64,000 bases of DNA from Brevibacillus composti (GCF_016406105.1 NZ_CP066308.1:3521501-3585500); one strand, 5' to 3'. Counted from the first letter of the stretch, positions 1-6,917 are shown. A program made the numbers and translations. Notes: generated by a model not told the origin, from the sequence alone.

Positions 1-285
1 ACCGAAATAGCGAAACGATTTCCAACGGCGGGTGGGATGATTGCCGCATTGCCCATTGTAAGTTTATTGAGCATTATCTGGTTGTCTGTTCAAGGAGAAT
101 CGTCAACTACGCTTAGTCAATTTGCACGGGGAGTACTCTTTGGATTTCCTTCCACGATAGTGTTGCTGGTAATTGTCTCCCTATCCTTGCGTTTTTCATA
201 TTCAGTGACAACCTCTATATTACTGGGGGTTGCCGGATGGTTTTTGATTATCTCTATCCAGAATTTCGTGATGAATCCCTCCTAG
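1..285 (+). CDS. DUF3147-like small membrane protein, 5' end outside window
   Basis: The frame is open from base 1 and reads TEIAKRFPTAGG before the first Met, so the gene begins upstream of the window. About 94 residues remain, with three hydrophobic stretches (roughly residues 13-30, 50-65 and 70-90). The pattern of an A-(K/R)-R-F-P motif followed by an IAALPIVSLLSIIWL-type helix is what I know from DUF3147/GlpM-like inner membrane proteins. The function is unknown. The family assignment rests on recalled motif similarity and is moderately secure. Confidence 0.6.
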   Translation, partial: TEIAKRFPTAGGMIAALPIVSLLSIIWLSVQGESSTTLSQFARGVLFGFPSTIVLLVIVSLSLRFSYSVTTSILLGVAGWFLIISIQNFVMNPS

Positions 286-438
286 GAAGATAGACAAGCC
301 AACCCACAATGACATAAATCGCCCTGGCGGGAAATCGAGCGGGACAAAATGCTGGGAGAGGAGAAACCCGCCTCTCTCTGACGTAGCTTCGGACTGTGCG
401 GTCCGTTTTTGCCTGCCGTCCGCCGTTCCGTGAAGCTT

Positions 439-900
439 TCACAACTCCTCCCTCCCCTCCTCCGCATAGACCTCCATCCCGAGCGCGCCGGCCAGCTTGC
501 GAAACGCGCTGTTTCGCAGCCGGTAATACGAGGAATGCGTCAGATTGAGCATGATGTAGGCCTCGATATCTGTCCGGTCCTCCCGGTCGAACCAGCGGGT
601 GAGGATCAACTCCCTCTCCCGCGTTGAGAGGCGGTTGACGGCGGTGAGGAGCTGCTCGACAAATTCCCGTCGCTCCTGCTCGATCGTCGCGTTGCGGACG
701 GCCACCTCCTCCGTGCTGCTGCGGAAGCGATTCGTCACCGATACTGGCGAGGCGTGCCAGCCTGCCGTGGTCCTCGCTTCCCATCCCGGATGAAACCCCA
801 TGCGGATAAAGTCCCGAGCCAAATCTAGCGCTCGCTTTACCCTGCGCTGCGTGGCTTGTACGTCAATTTGCGCGGGTGCGGAAAGAAACCAGGCGTTCAT
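439..900 (-). CDS. ArpU-family transcriptional regulator (phage-type)
   Basis: The protein has 153 residues. Its C-terminal 70 residues hold an RLSTRERELI...DREDRTDIEAY...HSSYYRLRNSAF segment, a sigma-70 region-4-like helix-turn-helix typical of ArpU regulators. These occur in prophages and were named for control of autolysin in Enterococcus hirae. I chose the ATG at 900; an ATG at 933 has a weak AGGAA site and would add 11 residues. The gene diverges from an XRE repressor, which suggests the remnant of a lysogeny or element-control region, although no structural phage genes are present. The DNA target is unknown. Confidence 0.75.
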   Translation of the reverse strand: MNAWFLSAPAQIDVQATQRRVKRALDLARDFIRMGFHPGWEARTTAGWHASPVSVTNRFRSSTEEVAVRNATIEQERREFVEQLLTAVNRLSTRERELILTRWFDREDRTDIEAYIMLNLTHSSYYRLRNSAFRKLAGALGMEVYAEEGREEL

Positions 901-961
901 TGTATGCAACACTCCTCTATACAAAATTTTCATACACTATTTCCTAAATCACACCAATGTT

Positions 962-978
962 GTACAATGTATTTGTAC
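962..978. promoter_or_regulatory. Palindromic operator candidate in arpU/xre intergenic region
   Basis: Perfect 6-bp arms GTACAA and TTGTAC are separated by 5 bases. The site lies 27 bases before the xre start, within the divergent promoter region. XRE repressors of this size commonly autoregulate through such sites, so it is a reasonable operator for the neighbouring repressor. No binding evidence is visible from sequence alone. Confidence 0.45.
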
Positions 979-1005
979 CTATTCACAGGAAGGACTGGTT
1001 CGTTC

Positions 1006-1455
1006 ATGATCTCCCAGCGCTTACGAACGGCCCGCCGGGCAAAAGGACTGACGCAGGAAGAACTGGCGGAAAAAGTCCGAACAACAAAAGGGACCATCAG
1101 CAATTACGAAAACAACCACAGTTCGCCTCCCAACGATATGCTTATGCAGCTTGCCGATGTGCTCCAGGTCTCTACAGACTGGTTGCTGGGCCGCGTCGAT
1201 GACGCGCTGGAACTGGCGCCTGCAGGCGGTCAGCCGCACCAGCGATCACTGGACGATTTATTACAGGAAAAAATCGATGACCCCGACGACTACTATTTTC
1301 TCGACGGCTATCTCGAAGCCACCGAAGACGAGAAAAAAGAGATTCGCCGGTATTGGTATGAATTAAAGAAACAGATGCGGGTTCATCAGGTGAATGAATC
1401 CAGACCGCCGTCCCTGTACGCGATTACGGAAAAAGGGAAAAAGACAACGAAATAA
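1006..1455 (+). CDS. XRE-family repressor (ImmR-like position)
   Basis: The protein has 149 residues. Residues 5-60 form a Cro/CI helix-turn-helix (RLRTARRAKGLTQEELAEK, then TKGTISNYENN). An LQVSTDWLLGR motif follows, typical of Bacillus SinR/Xre/ImmR repressors. The acidic C-terminal half is probably for oligomerisation. The ATG at 1006 is preceded by CAGGAAGG at 987-994, which decides against the longer open frame from 856. The next gene is an ImmA/IrrE peptidase. That pairing is known from ICEBs1, where ImmA cleaves ImmR, so this protein is the likely substrate (inference). Confidence 0.88.
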   Translation: MISQRLRTARRAKGLTQEELAEKVRTTKGTISNYENNHSSPPNDMLMQLADVLQVSTDWLLGRVDDALELAPAGGQPHQRSLDDLLQEKIDDPDDYYFLDGYLEATEDEKKEIRRYWYELKKQMRVHQVNESRPPSLYAITEKGKKTTK

Positions 1456-1458
1456 AAA

Positions 1459-1498
1459 AGAGCCCCATGGATAAACCAGGGGCATTCTTTCCATCCTG
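1459..1498 (+). terminator. Weak hairpin after xre
   Basis: GCCCC and GGGGC, extended by TGG/CCA across one bulged base, form a short stem followed by ATTCTTT. It could partly terminate xre transcription before the peptidase gene. The T-run is poor, so attenuation is more likely than full termination. Confidence 0.35.
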
Positions 1499-1539
1499 AT
1501 AACGAACATACGTTCCAACTCTTCAAAGGAGGTCTTCCC

Positions 1540-2061
1540 ATGCACTCTCTGATTGCCGAGGTGTTCGAGCCGCAAACCTGGCTGGAGGAGCGCGTCTATG
1601 AACTGCTGGAGCTTCATGGGATCCGGCAGCCCCGGGAGATTCGCGTCTCCGAGCTGTGCTCCGCTTACGGAATCGAGCTGTGGGACATCGCCGGCCGCAG
1701 TCGCGCCCATCCGCATCCGTACCTCCCCGGCCGCTTCGTCATCGCTGTGGATCACAGCCTCCCTTTGCCGCAGAGACGGGAAAAAATCGCCCATGAGCTC
1801 GGCCATCTGCTGTTGCACGAAGGCATGCAGCCCTGGGGCAAAGACGCGATGATCGATTGGCAGGAGGCACAGGCCAATCATTTTGCGGAGCATCTGCTGA
1901 TGCCCTACCCGATGTTTGGGCCGCTGCTGGAAAACTGCTCCCGATACGAAGCCCCTTCCCGTCTGGCCGCCATTTTTCGCGTGCCGCTGTCACTCGCCCA
2001 GAAGAGATTTGATCGTTTGCTGAGCAGGATGTACGCCAAGGGGCATCCGCTAATCTGGTAG
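1540..2061 (+). CDS. ImmA/IrrE-family metallopeptidase
   Basis: The protein has 173 residues. The zinc motif HELGH is at residues 85-89, and EAQANHFAEHLLMP (from residue 109) supplies the third metal-ligand glutamate. Both are hallmarks of the ImmA/IrrE (M78) family, whose members cleave XRE-type repressors to induce mobile elements or stress genes. A strong AAAGGAGG site lies 7 bases upstream of the ATG. The gene sits 84 bp after the XRE repressor and before a LexA-like gene. All catalytic residues are present, so it should be active. Confidence 0.9.
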   Translation: MHSLIAEVFEPQTWLEERVYELLELHGIRQPREIRVSELCSAYGIELWDIAGRSRAHPHPYLPGRFVIAVDHSLPLPQRREKIAHELGHLLLHEGMQPWGKDAMIDWQEAQANHFAEHLLMPYPMFGPLLENCSRYEAPSRLAAIFRVPLSLAQKRFDRLLSRMYAKGHPLIW

Positions 2062-2143
2062 CATCTGGCGAAGCGGGACCCAAGAGGCCTGTCCCCTGCA
2101 ACAAGCCTGATCAGAAATCGAACCCGAAAAGGAGCCGTCCCGC

Positions 2144-2554
2144 ATGAAGACGTTTTTTTTGGCTGGGGATGCTTACAGCACCCGCTTTTTCGATCTGTCT
2201 CTGGAGGAAGAGGAGCTATCGCTGATGCCCTGGATCGAAGCCGCCCGGTACCACGTCGCCCGCTTCGCCTTGCAGATGAGAGATGACGGCCTGAGCGGGC
2301 TCGGCATCTCCAGCGGCGACGCATTGTTGATCTCCGATTTTTCCCTGGAGCCGATCATCGGAAGACCGGTGCTGGTACGGCAAGAGGGTCAGTATCTCGT
2401 CCGGATCGCCTCTGAGGTAAACCCCGTCGAGTGTGTGTTTGCCTGCACAGATCATCATCCTCCCCTGATTCTGCCCTCTGAAAATATCCGGATCGTGGGC
2501 GTGGTCTCGGGAATCATCAGGGAGCCGGCGATTCACTCATCTGCCCAGCCCTGA
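2144..2554 (+). CDS. LexA/S24-fold protein with degenerate catalytic site
   Basis: The protein has 136 residues. Residues 48-126 follow the LexA/UmuD C-terminal fold: a GI-SSGD-ALLI segment, a variable middle, and a final IRIVGVVSGIIRE strand equal to LexA VEILGKVVGV. The nucleophile position reads D-G-L (Gly49) where active enzymes have D-S-M, and the Lys base is Arg87. There is no DNA-binding domain. It is therefore probably a non-catalytic S24-like partner rather than a protease. It follows xre and immA on the same strand and overlaps the convergent hydrolase gene by 18 bp. The name S24-like is moderately certain; the role is unknown. Confidence 0.6.
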   Translation: MKTFFLAGDAYSTRFFDLSLEEEELSLMPWIEAARYHVARFALQMRDDGLSGLGISSGDALLISDFSLEPIIGRPVLVRQEGQYLVRIASEVNPVECVFACTDHHPPLILPSENIRIVGVVSGIIREPAIHSSAQP

Positions 2555-3286
2555 AACCGTGCTCTTCATCCATTCTTTCAGCACAGACGCCGTCTGCTGC
2601 CACTGGTCTTCGGCGGAGATCACCGCCGGCTGGTCTCCCTTTTGGGGTCCATAGCTGCCGAATTGGGCATGATTCCCCCCTGCAATTGTCAGGAGATCCG
2701 TATTCGGCGGGAGATACTGCCGCGCTTTTTCATACTCCTCCTGATTCACCACACCGTCTCTGGATCCGATCAGAGAGAGGACAGGCAATGCTTTGTCAGC
2801 CAAATTCCCCCGCTGATCCGGATAGGCGGCGAGCAGGAACACCCCCATGAATTTTTCCGGGTGCAGGGCGGCATAGCGAGAAGCGACGACGCCTCCGAGC
2901 GAATGGCCGCCAATCACAAAAGGCTCCTCGGGATATGCCTTCAGCACGTCTTCGGCCCGGTCCTCTCCCGTGGCGGCGAGGTTGAGGGGCATTTTGACGA
3001 TCACCGTCCGGTGGCCGGACAACGCCATGAGACGGGCGAGTGGAGCGTAGCTCTCCGGGCCGACCAGGCTGCCCGGATAAAAGATCATCCCGGGTGGAGA
3101 ACTCTCCCCGCCCTCAAAGATGATCAAGCCCGCTCGTTCCACCACTCTCACCCCGTCTCCGTCCCTCATCGCGCTCATCGCATCTGCGTTCGGTCGGTAG
3201 GGATCGAGGTACCAGGCTGCGATGGCTACGAGCAAAGCGACGACGAGGAAGCCGTACAGCAAAAATCGGATAAAGCGTCTTCTCAT
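2537..3286 (-). CDS. Membrane-anchored alpha/beta hydrolase
   Basis: The protein has 249 residues. One N-terminal transmembrane segment (residues 5-25) is followed by an alpha/beta-hydrolase domain. The nucleophile elbow is GHSLGG with Ser129. A later IGSRDGVV motif carries the acid, and GGNHAQFG carries the catalytic His. It resembles the extracytoplasmic Abhydrolase_5-type proteins of Bacilli, and the substrate is unknown. The start at 3286 is preceded by GGAGGG; the longer frame from 3307 is less likely. The gene stands alone and converges on the LexA-like gene. Confidence 0.8.
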   Translation of the reverse strand: MRRRFIRFLLYGFLVVALLVAIAAWYLDPYRPNADAMSAMRDGDGVRVVERAGLIIFEGGESSPPGMIFYPGSLVGPESYAPLARLMALSGHRTVIVKMPLNLAATGEDRAEDVLKAYPEEPFVIGGHSLGGVVASRYAALHPEKFMGVFLLAAYPDQRGNLADKALPVLSLIGSRDGVVNQEEYEKARQYLPPNTDLLTIAGGNHAQFGSYGPQKGDQPAVISAEDQWQQTASVLKEWMKSTVSGLGR

Positions 3287-3548
3287 CGCTGGACCCTCCT
3301 TTCGCACCCTCCCCCTTTTTTTCTTTCATTAGTATGCGCGATTTCCAGCCGGGTGTGCATGCATTCCGGAAAAGCCTTCCTTTTTGTTGCAGACAACCAG
3401 GGGCGATCACAGCATGGCCGGAGCTGGCACAGTTAGGGTCGCTAGCTCGCTCGTCGACGGGAGACCGGACCTGCGACGCCGAGGCAAGATTGACCGAGAC
3501 GGCCCAACCGTACGTAGAAGCAGCCCCACATACAAGGAAATATTTGTA

Positions 3549-3578
3549 TTGACATCCTTTTTCTCCACATGGTAAGAT
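3549..3578 (+). promoter_or_regulatory. Sigma-A promoter before a decayed reading frame
   Basis: TTGACA at 3549-3554 and TAAGAT at 3573-3578 are separated by 18 bp. This is the clearest signal in the gene-poor stretch 3287-3969. It faces a short frame starting at 3609 preceded by GGAAGGGTG. Confidence 0.55.
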
Positions 3579-3608
3579 TTAACCCATACAAATTCGGAAG
3601 GGTGACTT

Positions 3609-3767
3609 ATGAACAATGATCATGTAATCCTGCCTCCAACGAAACAACCGTTTGAAACATCCATGTCTATGGGGAAACAAAAACGGTTTCTGGATAGGGA
3701 TTGGTGTCATTGTTCATCGTCGCCTTTATTCTTTGCTAGCGGAAAAAGACTTCGTATCGGGGTCTTC
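3609..3767 (+). pseudogene. Decayed small membrane-protein gene
   Basis: An ATG with a GGAAGGGTG site opens a 52-codon frame. Its start reads normally (MNNDHVILPPTKQPFET). After codon 25 the hydrophobic character is only recovered by changing frame twice: KRFWIGIGVIV in frame 2, then FIVAFILC in frame 3. This suggests a transmembrane protein broken by small indels. The rest of the gap (3287-3548 and 3768-3930) shows nothing I recognise. The original family cannot be named. Confidence 0.35.
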
Positions 3768-3932
3768 CACTAGAAGAGAGTCCATCCGCGGCCTCGCCTG
3801 ATCCTGGTATTGCTCGCGATATTCCGCGCAATGCTTGTCATTTAAGCGAACGGCCCGACGGAGTGCGGAACTTCCCGGCAGCCCCCGGCTGTTTGTGGTT
3901 TGGTTCCTTTTGCGATCATGAATTATACAGCC

Positions 3933-3963
3933 GCCTCCTATCCGGAAACCAGGATAAGGAGGC
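3933..3963 (+). promoter_or_regulatory. Hairpin sequestering the ribosome site of the MFS gene
   Basis: GCCTCCTATCC (3933-3943) pairs with GGATAAGGAGGC (3952-3963), forming 11 bp with one bulged A around an 8-base loop. The 3' arm contains the AAGGAGG ribosome site of the gene starting at 3970. When folded, translation should be blocked, as in translational attenuation of some drug-resistance genes. No convincing leader peptide is seen: the ATG at 3918 has no ribosome site. Confidence 0.6.
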
Positions 3964-3969
3964 TATTTT

Positions 3970-5190
3970 ATGGCCCAAACAAGTATTTTTCAAAACCGGG
4001 TTGTCCGGACGATCTTGCTCTCGGCCCTGTTTTTGCAGATCGGCATCTGGGTGCGAAATTTTGCCGTGCTGCTGTTCGTGATGGAACAGACCCATGGCGA
4101 TCCGTTTGCCGTCTCGATGATCTATCTGGCGGAATTTGCGCCCATCTTTATCTTTTCGTTTATCGGCGGCACCTTTGCTGACCGCTGGCGCCCCAAGCAT
4201 ACCATGGTTTGGTGCGACCTTTTGAGCGCGGTTTCCGTATTCGTCGTGCTGCTTACCTTTGTATTCGGGACCTGGAAAGCGGTATTTTTCGCCACGCTCG
4301 TCTCCGCCATCCTGTCTCAGTTTTCGCAGCCTTCCGGCATGAAGCTCTTCAAGATGCATTTGCCCGAGGATCAGATGCAGGCGGGGATGTCGATCTATCA
4401 GACGTTGTTCGCCGTCTTCATGATCTTCGGTCCCGTGCTGGGCACGTTTGTCTACCAAACCTTTGGCATCAGCGCGGCGATCGGCATCATGGGCGTCGCC
4501 TTTCTGCTCTCCGCGGCTGTGCTGTTTTTCCTGCCGCCCGACCGCGTCGAGGAAAAGAATGAGCGGGCCACGACGCTCCTGCAAGAGATGGGGAACGGCA
4601 TCCGCTATGTCCTGGGCAATCCCGTGCTGACCAAGCTGGGTTTCTGCTTTTTGGCCGCTGGACTCAGTATCGGCATGATTCAGCCGATGGGCATCTTTCT
4701 GGTGACAGAGCGGCTGGGCCTGCCGAAGGAAAGCCTGCAGTGGTTGATGGCCGTCAACGGTGTCGGCATGATTCTCGGAGGCGCGCTGACGATGACCGTC
4801 GCCAAGAAAACGCCGCCGCAAAAACTGCTCGTCGTCGGGATGCTGGTGAATGCGATCGCCTTTGTGGTAGCCGGTCTTTCCACCAATCTGTGGCTGACGA
4901 TGACGGCGCAGCTATTCAACGGCTTGTTCATGCCATGCATCCACATCGGCATCAACACCATGATCTTGAAGTACACCGAAGGGGCCTTTGTCGGCCGCGT
5001 GATGGGCATTCTCAGCCCGCTGTTTACAGGTGCGATGGTGCTGACGATGAGCATCGCCGGGACGATGAAAAAAATGTTGTCGCTGGTCTCTGTATACGAG
5101 ATCGCCGCGTTCCTCTTTATCGTCGGTCTGCTGTTCATCGTGCCCCTGCTGCGCCAACAGCCGCAACTCGAACAGAAGCCTGCCCCCTAA
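3970..5190 (+). CDS. MFS efflux transporter
   Basis: The protein has 406 residues and about 12 hydrophobic helices. The loop-2/3 motif is GGTFADRWRPKHTM, with the GxxxDRxxxK core of the major facilitator superfamily near residue 60. This subfamily (MFS_3-like) includes bacterial macrolide and siderophore exporters, so drug or metabolite export by proton antiport is the likely job. The substrate cannot be told. It is monocistronic, with a ribosome-site hairpin upstream and an intrinsic terminator downstream. The start at ATG 3970, 7 bases after AAGGAGG, is secure. Confidence 0.88.
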   Translation: MAQTSIFQNRVVRTILLSALFLQIGIWVRNFAVLLFVMEQTHGDPFAVSMIYLAEFAPIFIFSFIGGTFADRWRPKHTMVWCDLLSAVSVFVVLLTFVFGTWKAVFFATLVSAILSQFSQPSGMKLFKMHLPEDQMQAGMSIYQTLFAVFMIFGPVLGTFVYQTFGISAAIGIMGVAFLLSAAVLFFLPPDRVEEKNERATTLLQEMGNGIRYVLGNPVLTKLGFCFLAAGLSIGMIQPMGIFLVTERLGLPKESLQWLMAVNGVGMILGGALTMTVAKKTPPQKLLVVGMLVNAIAFVVAGLSTNLWLTMTAQLFNGLFMPCIHIGINTMILKYTEGAFVGRVMGILSPLFTGAMVLTMSIAGTMKKMLSLVSVYEIAAFLFIVGLLFIVPLLRQQPQLEQKPAP

Positions 5191-5215
5191 ACCGAGAAAC
5201 ACGGACAGAAAAAGA

Positions 5216-5263
5216 GACGACCGGGACCATAAGCGGGTTCCCGGCCGTCCTTTTCCGTTTTAT
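5216..5263 (+). terminator. Intrinsic terminator of the MFS gene
   Basis: GACGACCGGGA and TTCCCGGCCGTC form a GC-rich stem with one mismatch around a short loop. CCTTTTCCGTTTT follows. Confidence 0.7.
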
Positions 5264-5360
5264 AACACAATGATCCAAACGCCTCTGTCGGGGCATCACG
5301 ATGATCCGATGAATGCCTCTCTACTCCGATTTTCCAGGCTATTGTCCCTCCCCATGGCGA

Positions 5361-6281
5361 TCATCCAAACGCCTGAGACGCGATCGCGTACAGACAGCCA
5401 TTTCGCTTTGGCAATCGGTCCGCTTGCTTTACCATGATCGGCGGCTGCGTCACCTGGGTGAATCCCGCTCCTTCCAGAAAGCGCCGAAACCCTTCGTGTC
5501 CGGAGGGGACATCGATTCGCAGCTTCCCGGGGTAGTTGTGCGCCAGTGCATCCACCAGCAGTACGGCCGCCTGCTCATCGGGAGCGACGATGGGGCCGAG
5601 CACCAGATTGACAGGGCCCTCTACGCCCAGCCCGTAGCCCGCGACGGAACCGTCCCTCCCCAACAAGACGAGCTTTTTCCGTGCCTGGACGATCCGGCGG
5701 AACAAAAATTCTCTTCTGTCCGCGCCGAATGCCTGTTTGTCCAGGCGGATGATCGGCTCCAGATGTTCGGGAGCCAAGGGCTGTACCTCCCACAGCGAGC
5801 TTGCGGGCGGTGTCGCTTTACTAGAGCCTTCCGCGTGCGGTCCCGCTGATGGCTGATAGCGGTCGCACAAGTATTTGTGCACCCAGTCCACGGCAGCAAA
5901 ACCGAGCCCTTCATAGACCGGTCTCCCTGCCGGTGTGGCGACAAGCATCAAGGCGGGCGCGCGGCCATCCGCCGTCTGTTCGTTGCCGGCGTCGACACAT
6001 GCCTGCGTGACTTCCTTTCCCAGCCCCCTCCCCCGATAGTCAGGATGTACGATGACCATCCCGATGGAAGCCAGCGACTCGCCGTACGGGATAACGGCTG
6101 CACAGGAGCATACGCCCCCCTCCCGGTCCCGGTGGCCGAAAACTCTCCCGGCGATAAAAAAAGTGGCCACCTCTTCTTCGTCATAATCCCAGCCCACCAT
6201 AGCCGACAGCCGGAGCAAATCGGGAATATCTGCTGGGGTCAGCTCCTCCAAGCGCAGTTCAAAGCGATCAAGGTCACCCAT
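5361..6281 (-). CDS. Tandem GNAT-family N-acetyltransferase
   Basis: The protein has 306 residues. The N-terminal GNAT domain (about residues 8-145) has the acetyl-CoA motif V-HPDYRGRGLGKEV (Q/R-x-x-G-x-G/A type) followed by VYEGLGF. The C-terminal half (about residues 165-300) is a second GNAT-like domain ending in GFRRFLEGAGF, similar to the Acetyltransf_18/YitH arrangement. The acceptor is unknown. I chose the start at 6281; the 17 residues before it in the open frame are Arg/Gly-rich and lack a better ribosome site. It is 57 bp after the co-directional CGNR gene and may share its transcript. Confidence 0.82.
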   Translation of the reverse strand: MGDLDRFELRLEELTPADIPDLLRLSAMVGWDYDEEEVATFFIAGRVFGHRDREGGVCSCAAVIPYGESLASIGMVIVHPDYRGRGLGKEVTQACVDAGNEQTADGRAPALMLVATPAGRPVYEGLGFAAVDWVHKYLCDRYQPSAGPHAEGSSKATPPASSLWEVQPLAPEHLEPIIRLDKQAFGADRREFLFRRIVQARKKLVLLGRDGSVAGYGLGVEGPVNLVLGPIVAPDEQAAVLLVDALAHNYPGKLRIDVPSGHEGFRRFLEGAGFTQVTQPPIMVKQADRLPKRNGCLYAIASQAFG

Positions 6282-6338
6282 ACCTTTTCCCCCTCTTTCT
6301 CGTCGATTGGCTCTCCTGCCGGAAGAGGGCAACCGTGA

Positions 6339-6917
6339 TCAGTCTTCACCCTCCGCCGCTCCCCCTCCCTTCTGTTTTTGCCTTTCGCGAAAACGGCGCA
6401 CCTTCATCAGATTGCCGCAGGTCTTGTCCTCGCACCAGCGACTGGAGCGATTCCGGCTCTCGTCGTAATAGACCCAGAGGCAATTGGGATTTTCACAGAT
6501 TTTCAGGCGTCTCGGGTCCCCTTTCGTCAAAAGGTCCCCGAAGGAGGAAAGGATTTTTCCCATCAGGCCTTCCCAGCCCTCACCCAAGACCACCTCCTGC
6601 ACTTGATACTGTGCCTCCGGATCAAAGACAAGCCGTCTGTACGTCGGGACCGATGCAGCGATCCGGTTGATTCCCGCCAAATCCTGCTCATCTGGCGCCT
6701 GCCGGGCAGCTACGGCTTCCGTCACCCGGCGCATATAATTCCTGAGTTCTGTCAAGGCGGCGATAACGGCAGGCTCCGTCGGCATCGGCAAGTCCAGTAT
6801 CCATTTCCGCGAAAATTTCTGCCACCACTCCGGCTGGTTCAGTCGGTCTACCCGCTCGCCGGAGCCGCGCCAATTTCTGTAATCGCTGTTAAGAAAATCG
6901 AGACAAAGCCATTCCAC
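6339..6917 (-). CDS. CGNR zinc-finger (ABATE-domain) putative regulator
   Basis: The protein has 192 residues. The N-terminal ABATE-type domain starts WLCLDFLNS. The C-terminal CGNR zinc finger is complete: C-x-NPNC-WVYYDESRNRSSRWC-x4-CGNLMKVRRFRER, with four Cys ligands and the family-defining CGNR variant CGNL. Such proteins are regarded as stress-linked transcription regulators, though few are characterised. The gene diverges from a DinB gene at 7071 and sits upstream of the GNAT gene. Confidence 0.85.
   Translation of the reverse strand: MEWLCLDFLNSDYRNWRGSGERVDRLNQPEWWQKFSRKWILDLPMPTEPAVIAALTELRNYMRRVTEAVAARQAPDEQDLAGINRIAASVPTYRRLVFDPEAQYQVQEVVLGEGWEGLMGKILSSFGDLLTKGDPRRLKICENPNCLWVYYDESRNRSSRWCEDKTCGNLMKVRRFRERQKQKGGGAAEGED

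Follow-up and report, generated by a model that had tools for sequence, protein, structure and literature searches.

A Predicted LexA-Fold Pseudo-Protease Encoded with an ImmR/ImmA-Type Switch in Brevibacillus and in Prophages of Other Bacilli

Introduction

XRE repressors become targets of ImmA-family proteases once DNA is damaged (PMC10233336, PMC10904395, PMC12637031). In the ImmR/ImmA systems of ICEBs1, TnSmu1, and the pneumococcal ImmAR prophages, the gene for an ImmR-like helix-turn-helix (HTH) repressor is followed by the gene for the ImmA metallopeptidase. The route by which DNA damage reaches an ImmA-type protease is an open question: a dependence on RecA, direct sensing of single-stranded DNA by some members of the family (PMC10904395), and RecA-independent induction, of which pneumococcal ImmAR prophages are capable (PMC12637031), have all been published.

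In Deinococcus, IrrE (PprI) and DdrO, a chromosomally encoded metallopeptidase and an XRE repressor, form the DNA-damage switch of the radiation response (PMC7907104, PMC10904395). IrrE contains extra domains, and DdrO controls about 20 genes independently of LexA and RecA. The CapH/CapP system of CBASS combines an XRE-type repressor with a damage-activated ImmA-like protease (PMC10904395). The lysogeny module of pneumococcal ImmAR prophages contains an extra gene, szaL/spaL, the products of which are described as surface-exposed zinc (metallo)proteins (PMC12637031). Pairs of XRE and COG2856 proteins were treated by Makarova 2009, the main text of which mentions neither S24 nor UmuD, and in the partial collection of literature searched here, no paper was found to describe ImmA modules with a dead S24 gene.

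This paper describes a locus from a 64-kb stretch of DNA of Brevibacillus composti, referred to as the window. The locus encodes an XRE repressor, an ImmA metallopeptidase, and a third protein of predicted LexA/UmuD fold with a lost catalytic dyad, designated pS24 (pseudo-S24). The trio is present in nearly every Brevibacillus species and in prophages of other Bacilli, and its new element is the dead S24 gene, which is added to the known ImmR/ImmA kind of switch. As in ImmR/ImmA systems, the repressor gene precedes the metallopeptidase gene, and the phage relatives of the trio adjoin integrases; in contrast to these systems, the Brevibacillus locus adds the dead LexA fold as well as a terminator and an SOS box before immA, and it is a genus-wide core locus devoid of an integrase. 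With IrrE/DdrO it shares the chromosomal pair of metallopeptidase and repressor, but exact operators are present only at its own promoter, and its immA gene looks LexA-controlled. Unlike for CapH/CapP, no defence operon was seen attached to the module. CapH/CapP systems are not known to contain a LexA-like third gene. CapP is the nearest solved relative of ImmA, with a nonsignificant E-value of 0.18. Like szaL/spaL, pS24 is an extra gene in an ImmAR-type module, but its product is S24-like. Compared to LexA and UmuD (Peptidase S24), pS24 shares the C-terminal domain fold, the N-terminal arm included, but it is without an HTH domain, contains Gly for Ser and Arg for Lys, and is encoded after immA.

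The xre-immA-pS24 Locus in the Window

The initial annotation had placed four open reading frames here, coding for ArpU, XRE, ImmA, and S24-like proteins, and an ORF reading of the window located all four at those positions. An ArpU-family phage late regulator is encoded on the minus strand (439 to 933) with matches to TIGR01637 (73.8 bits, cut-off 43.1) and phrog_248 (2e-22), and it diverges from the module. The ArpU/XRE intergenic region contains a perfect palindrome, GTACAATGTATTTGTAC (GTACAA-N5-TTGTAC, positions 962 to 978), which is the predicted XRE operator. On the plus strand follows the 149-residue repressor (1006 to 1455), consisting of an HTH domain (residues 1-66; HTH_3, 2e-17) and a conserved C-terminal module (residues 82-141). 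Its best PDB match is the HTH of the ICEBs1 Xre regulator ImmR (7t8i, E-value 3.7e-11). In the gap before immA, a terminator-like hairpin is located on the plus strand (GCCCC...GGGGC followed by ATTCTTT, 1462 to 1490), and a LexA/DinR-type SOS box of the form GAACN4GTTC, CGAACATACGTTCC, at positions 1503 to 1516. The immA gene (1540 to 2061, plus strand) codes for a 173-residue ImmA/IrrE metallopeptidase which matches Peptidase_M78 (PF06114) with 59.2 bits at a cut-off of 22, and in which the HEXXH motif is intact as HELGH. The 136-residue pS24 is encoded at positions 2144 to 2554 on the plus strand. Next after pS24, an alpha/beta-hydrolase gene was identified (2537-3307). The description of the locus as a pair of the ImmR/ImmA type with an S24-fold protein encoded behind it, the Ser/Lys dyad of which is lost, is borne out by the 7t8i and PF06114 matches together with the LexA fold and the residue alignment described below.

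Inspection by eye of the 15-kb locus around the module (L092) and of window positions 1-6500 revealed no integrase or phage structural genes. About 3-7 kb before the start of the window, two neighbouring ORFs resemble, as read from their sequence, group II intron reverse transcriptases (L092:2779-6174, at about 3514778-3518173 of G000:C1).

pS24, a Predicted LexA Fold with a Lost Active Site

Against the Pfam S24 profile, pS24 scored 18 bits, which is under the cut-off of 23.3, and it matched the "UmuD-like" family phrog_811 with 2e-6. A predicted fold other than S24-like had been set beforehand as a refutation of the initial annotation. The AlphaFold model, computed from 19 aligned native relatives (pLDDT 90.5), corresponds to the C-terminal domain of LexA, with a Z score of 16.1 and an rmsd of 2.2 over 118 residues for 1jhe (Foldseek, VIA-align), which is the cleavable conformation of LexA. 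For the RecA-bound LexA chains 8gms and 8s7g the Z score was 16.0, and for UmuD' it was 9.8.

HMM alignments to LexA proteins in the PDB placed Gly49 of pS24 (codon 2288 to 2290, plus strand) at the position of LexA Ser119 and Arg87 (codon 2402 to 2404, plus strand) at that of Lys156, so that the residues which had been named as replacing the Ser/Lys dyad were correctly called. Among 17 diverse members, M1, D47, G49, G54, G58, R87, and G123 are invariant. In the enlarged set, Gly is present at the Ser position in every member, and Lys is kept only in L139, a copy truncated by its contig end and the only one without the Arg87 equivalent. A phylum-wide search with the pS24 profile yielded mostly LexA-like proteins with intact dyads and served as a control only. 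Since these weak LexA-like matches retain both Ser and Lys, the profile does not force the dead-dyad result. The dyad is also intact in the LexA protein of the window genome (GDSM...TVK). With Ser replaced by Gly and Lys by Arg, self-cleavage of pS24 is not expected.

The gene does not have the appearance of a decaying one. Approximate dN/dS values, several of the underlying dS values being close to saturation, were 0.043 and 0.064 for the two computable pairs of the B. borstelensis clade and 0.055 for the brevis clade, and were the lowest of the three genes (ImmA 0.09-0.16, XRE 0.08-0.14). Judged from these substitution patterns, pS24 has been maintained as a pseudo-protease.

pS24 has kept the N-terminal arm, with the segment in which LexA is cleaved, and its Gly8 is near-invariant. 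Together with the RecA-bound LexA chains among the best structural matches, this is consistent with a tentative reading in which pS24 would be a sensor of RecA filaments, docking to them like LexA or UmuD and delivering or activating ImmA; the loss of catalysis would then prevent its self-destruction on RecA. This would be a sharper version of the explanation preferred below, and it would explain the activation of some ImmA proteases by RecA. However, UmuD-type folds serve other partners too, and a LexA control of the core immA-pS24 unit would already provide a damage response without a second sensor.

Conservation of the Locus in Brevibacillus

The initial annotation would have failed on a gene order unique to this strain. 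pS24 was identified in 24 of 26 Brevibacillus genomes, at 25 places and with 61-83% identity outside the window genome, and XRE and ImmA orthologues are encoded directly 5' of it in the same 24 genomes. The collinear trio and both dyad substitutions are kept in all 24, an observation which is far from chance. Relatives of the alpha/beta-hydrolase gene adjoin most core copies, which points to one ancestral core locus. The core trio is chromosomal, with no integrase adjoining it, and it was not classed as residing in a mobile element.

ArpU had been included in the module, but it adjoins the trio in only three of the 26 genomes, namely, the window genome (G000), B. borstelensis (G004), and G021, and it was dropped as a component. 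The flanking gene cluster c9 adjoins xre where arpU is absent and adjoins arpU where it is present, a pattern which identifies ArpU as either a clade-specific gain or a retained relic. The predicted operator is flanked by the starts of arpU and xre, which diverge from it, so that the repressor could also control arpU in that clade.

ArpU and the XRE-ImmA pair belong to gene types of phages, no integrase is present, and some distant copies, among them L134, L138, and L139, stand alone or are broken or truncated. An ordinary decayed prophage remnant, in which xre, immA, an S24 relic, and arpU are without function, would account for these features. Against it stand the presence of one locus in 24 of 26 species with a conserved operator and SOS box, and the purifying selection across the three genes (dN/dS 0.04-0.16), and we regard a remnant as highly improbable.

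The XRE Repressor and Its Predicted Operator

The motif GTACAA-N5-TTGTAC is present, exactly or with one base different, at all 24 core xre promoters, and in the brevis clade two exact copies are located 72 bp apart. Exact copies of the motif occur in 20 of the 26 genomes, one or two in each and confined to the xre promoter; among these 20 genomes, a regulon search revealed no exact site elsewhere. The motif is likely the XRE operator. One-mismatch sites occurred at about the control level in nine genomes, and at the control frequency in the window genome. Operators before many DNA-repair genes, as in the IrrE/DdrO type of system, were not found, the exact sites being at xre only.

A near-operator, GTACAAGAAAATTATAC, was identified in three species about 94 bp before the gene for a small membrane protein (L254:1509, corresponding to G000:C1:3344808, and also L257 and L258). 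It contains a promoter-like TATAAT and was not called as an XRE target; it may be a weak target or merely a promoter.

The structure prediction for XRE was of low confidence, with an overall pLDDT of 68.6 and the lowest values in the C-terminal half. In the XRE copies of phages (L093, L099), the HTH half differs, and the C-terminal module LLQEKIDDPDDYYFLDGYLEASEEEKKEIRRYWYDLKK...PSLFEIT is retained. Two genomes (G010, G019) contain extra loci which match residues 79-148 of XRE only. This distribution suggests that the C-terminal module is the part recognised by ImmA (and pS24), and that the HTH half is exchanged to change operator specificity.

Terminator-Like Hairpin and SOS Box before immA

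In nearly all core copies, the xre-immA gap contains a CCCC-loop-GGGG hairpin with a T-rich tail, although the copy in the window was not listed by the consensus scan. Directly after the hairpin, GAACN4GTTC is present 5' of immA in 24 of 24 core copies, and 16 of the 24 contain a second such box 152-158 bp upstream of xre. In the window, CGAACATACGTTCC is the sole GAACN4GTTC site; at least one match also occurred in 72 of 100 shuffles, so that the evidence lies in the placement of the box and its conservation across species.

The perfect SOS consensus CGAACN4GTTCG has no match in the whole window genome, in which the reversed control pattern occurs five times, and all boxes used here are one or two bases off the perfect consensus; LexA boxes in Brevibacillus seem always to be imperfect. 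In a 400-kb stretch of the same genome, in which genes were named from sequence motifs, recA is preceded by the box CGAATATTTGTTCG at 90 bp upstream, boxes surround lexA and a small divergent gene which is yneA-like by position, and a Y-family polymerase gene is preceded by two boxes, CGAACATCTGTTTG and CGAACATTTGTTCC. The immA box equals these boxes in quality and was accepted as a LexA box.

From these sites, the immA-pS24 unit in Brevibacillus appears to be under SOS (LexA) control. No GAACN4GTTC was found at this place in the Brevibacillus phage copies, and some such sites are present in distant Bacilli loci; the predicted SOS wiring is assigned to the chromosomal Brevibacillus locus only. 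The initial annotation had offered two guesses, a repurposed stress switch or an antirepressor system, of which the stress switch is the better one, as immA and pS24 are located behind a conserved SOS box.

Relatives in Prophages of Brevibacillus and Other Bacilli

A tblastn search of pS24 against phage and plasmid records gave no matches, so that the link to prophages rests on IMG/VR contigs and on prophages within genomes. The ImmA-pS24 set was identified in two IMG/VR contigs (L098, L099) and in prophage regions of two genomes (G010, G037), the pS24 proteins of L098 and G037 being identical. XRE is encoded upstream of the set in G010 and L099, and a serine integrase 3' of it in G010, G037, and L099. 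Nearby phage genes include Gam-like and SbcC-like ones, assigned by family search, and helicase-, terminase-, and ParB-like ORFs recognised by eye. A different arrangement in L100/L101 comprises ArpU, terminase- and portal-like ORFs, ImmA, pS24, and a tyrosine integrase. The occurrence of the cassette in both serine- and tyrosine-integrase elements suggests movement between unrelated integrases.

A search of 398 Bacilli genomes with the pS24 profile yielded further members, all without the catalytic Ser. For intact pS24 outside the Brevibacillus core, ImmA is encoded directly upstream in every member, and an integrase directly downstream except in L129 and L130. The third gene is therefore not peculiar to the window locus; its family occurs across Bacilli prophages next to integrases. 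In L225, L222, L131, L133, and similar loci, pS24 is usually located between immA and the integrase, the ORFs overlapping or near-adjacent.

ImmA neighbourhoods were also sampled in 121 Bacilli genomes, chosen among those in which no pS24 had been identified before. Among the resulting 80, pS24 is present in two (L222, L225), each time followed by a tyrosine integrase, and no recognisable intact LexA-type S24 protein was identified. pS24, being rare in this sample, marks a minority subtype of ImmA modules. One of the 80 contains a divergent HTH-S24 protein: at L216:1827-3736, an XRE and an ImmA-like protein are accompanied by a third protein, which contains an HTH, ends in a divergent S24-like part, and may be a fused relative of pS24. 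A Brevibacillus prophage, L262 (G019:C19:447300-454000), contains xre, immA, and a serine integrase without pS24, with two unrelated genes between xre and immA, and offers a natural comparison for the need for pS24.

Pseudo-proteases often act as regulators. The location of pS24 directly after immA, often with overlapping ORFs, and the conservation of the repressor C-terminal module with the ImmA-pS24 pair while the HTH is swapped would fit a brake, in which pS24 serves as a pseudo-substrate or scaffold on ImmA or on this module, prevents premature cleavage, and ensures reversibility. Co-production with the protease under SOS control is, however, less natural for a brake than for a co-activator, and the proposal is held as one speculative possibility.

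The core locus could instead act on resident prophages, the SOS-made ImmA-pS24 pair cleaving prophage repressors which share the C-terminal module, or the core repressor being a decoy for phage ImmA; the effect would be to coordinate or pre-empt prophage induction. The shared module behind a different HTH in phage XRE, the 52-54% identity between core and phage ImmA, the lack of any host target found beyond the own promoter, and the coordination of co-resident phage elements as reported for Listeria (PMC6872733) agree with this. The locus is, however, also present in genomes in which no such prophage was seen, and we consider an action on prophages rather unlikely.

Proposed Mechanism

The reading that we prefer, and consider reasonably probable, is that of a domesticated phage-type immunity switch, with an SOS-induced immA-pS24 unit, cleavage of XRE by ImmA, and pS24 as a noncatalytic cofactor or sensor. 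The core module would have descended from a prophage lysogeny module of the order xre, immA, pS24, and integrase, or would share ancestry with it, and the chromosomal core locus would have been inherited vertically. A direction of evolution from phage to chromosome is inferred.

XRE would bind GTACAA-N5-TTGTAC and thereby repress transcription of its own gene and, within the B. borstelensis clade, also that of the divergently oriented arpU. The immA-pS24 genes would form a separate unit behind the terminator, kept off by LexA as the box implies. After DNA damage, RecA filaments would form and LexA would be cleaved, so that ImmA and pS24 would be produced. ImmA would then cleave XRE, probably in the conserved C-terminal module, a step modelled on work on ICEBs1/ImmR, including that on ICEBs1 and TnSmu1 (PMC10233336), and on DdrO/PprI (PMC7907104, PMC10904395). 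The mechanism as a whole also draws on studies of pneumococcal ImmAR phages (PMC12637031). Removal of XRE would lift the repression of xre, and of arpU where it is present. pS24, itself presumably unable to self-cleave, would most likely be a noncatalytic cofactor of the cleavage step and either dock to RecA filaments via its LexA-type surface or hold on to ImmA or XRE. Docking to RecA is attractive, since the best structural neighbours include RecA-bound LexA. The cofactor role is favoured, and a brake or scaffold would be nearly as likely.

Several observations speak against this explanation. A separate sensor is not required, given the ssDNA-sensing and RecA-free ImmA responses elsewhere; the L262 prophage module contains xre, immA, and integrase but no pS24; most ImmA loci sampled in Bacilli are without an S24-like neighbour; no conserved downstream target was found, the exact operators being at xre only; and the perfect SOS consensus has no match in the genome.

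Concluding Remarks

An ImmA protease and a strongly conserved dead LexA domain encoded in one operon are a concrete candidate for the missing link between DNA damage and ImmA-type proteases. More doubtfully, pS24 might be a RecA-filament adaptor, which would make it part of a split, third kind of wiring from damage to repressor in Bacilli prophages, domesticated with LexA control in Brevibacillus. The apparent SOS wiring of immA-pS24 makes the role of the pseudo-enzyme directly testable. For the genus, the locus seems to be a clear instance in which an immunity module of phage type has been kept by its bacterial hosts and put under the host SOS regulon.
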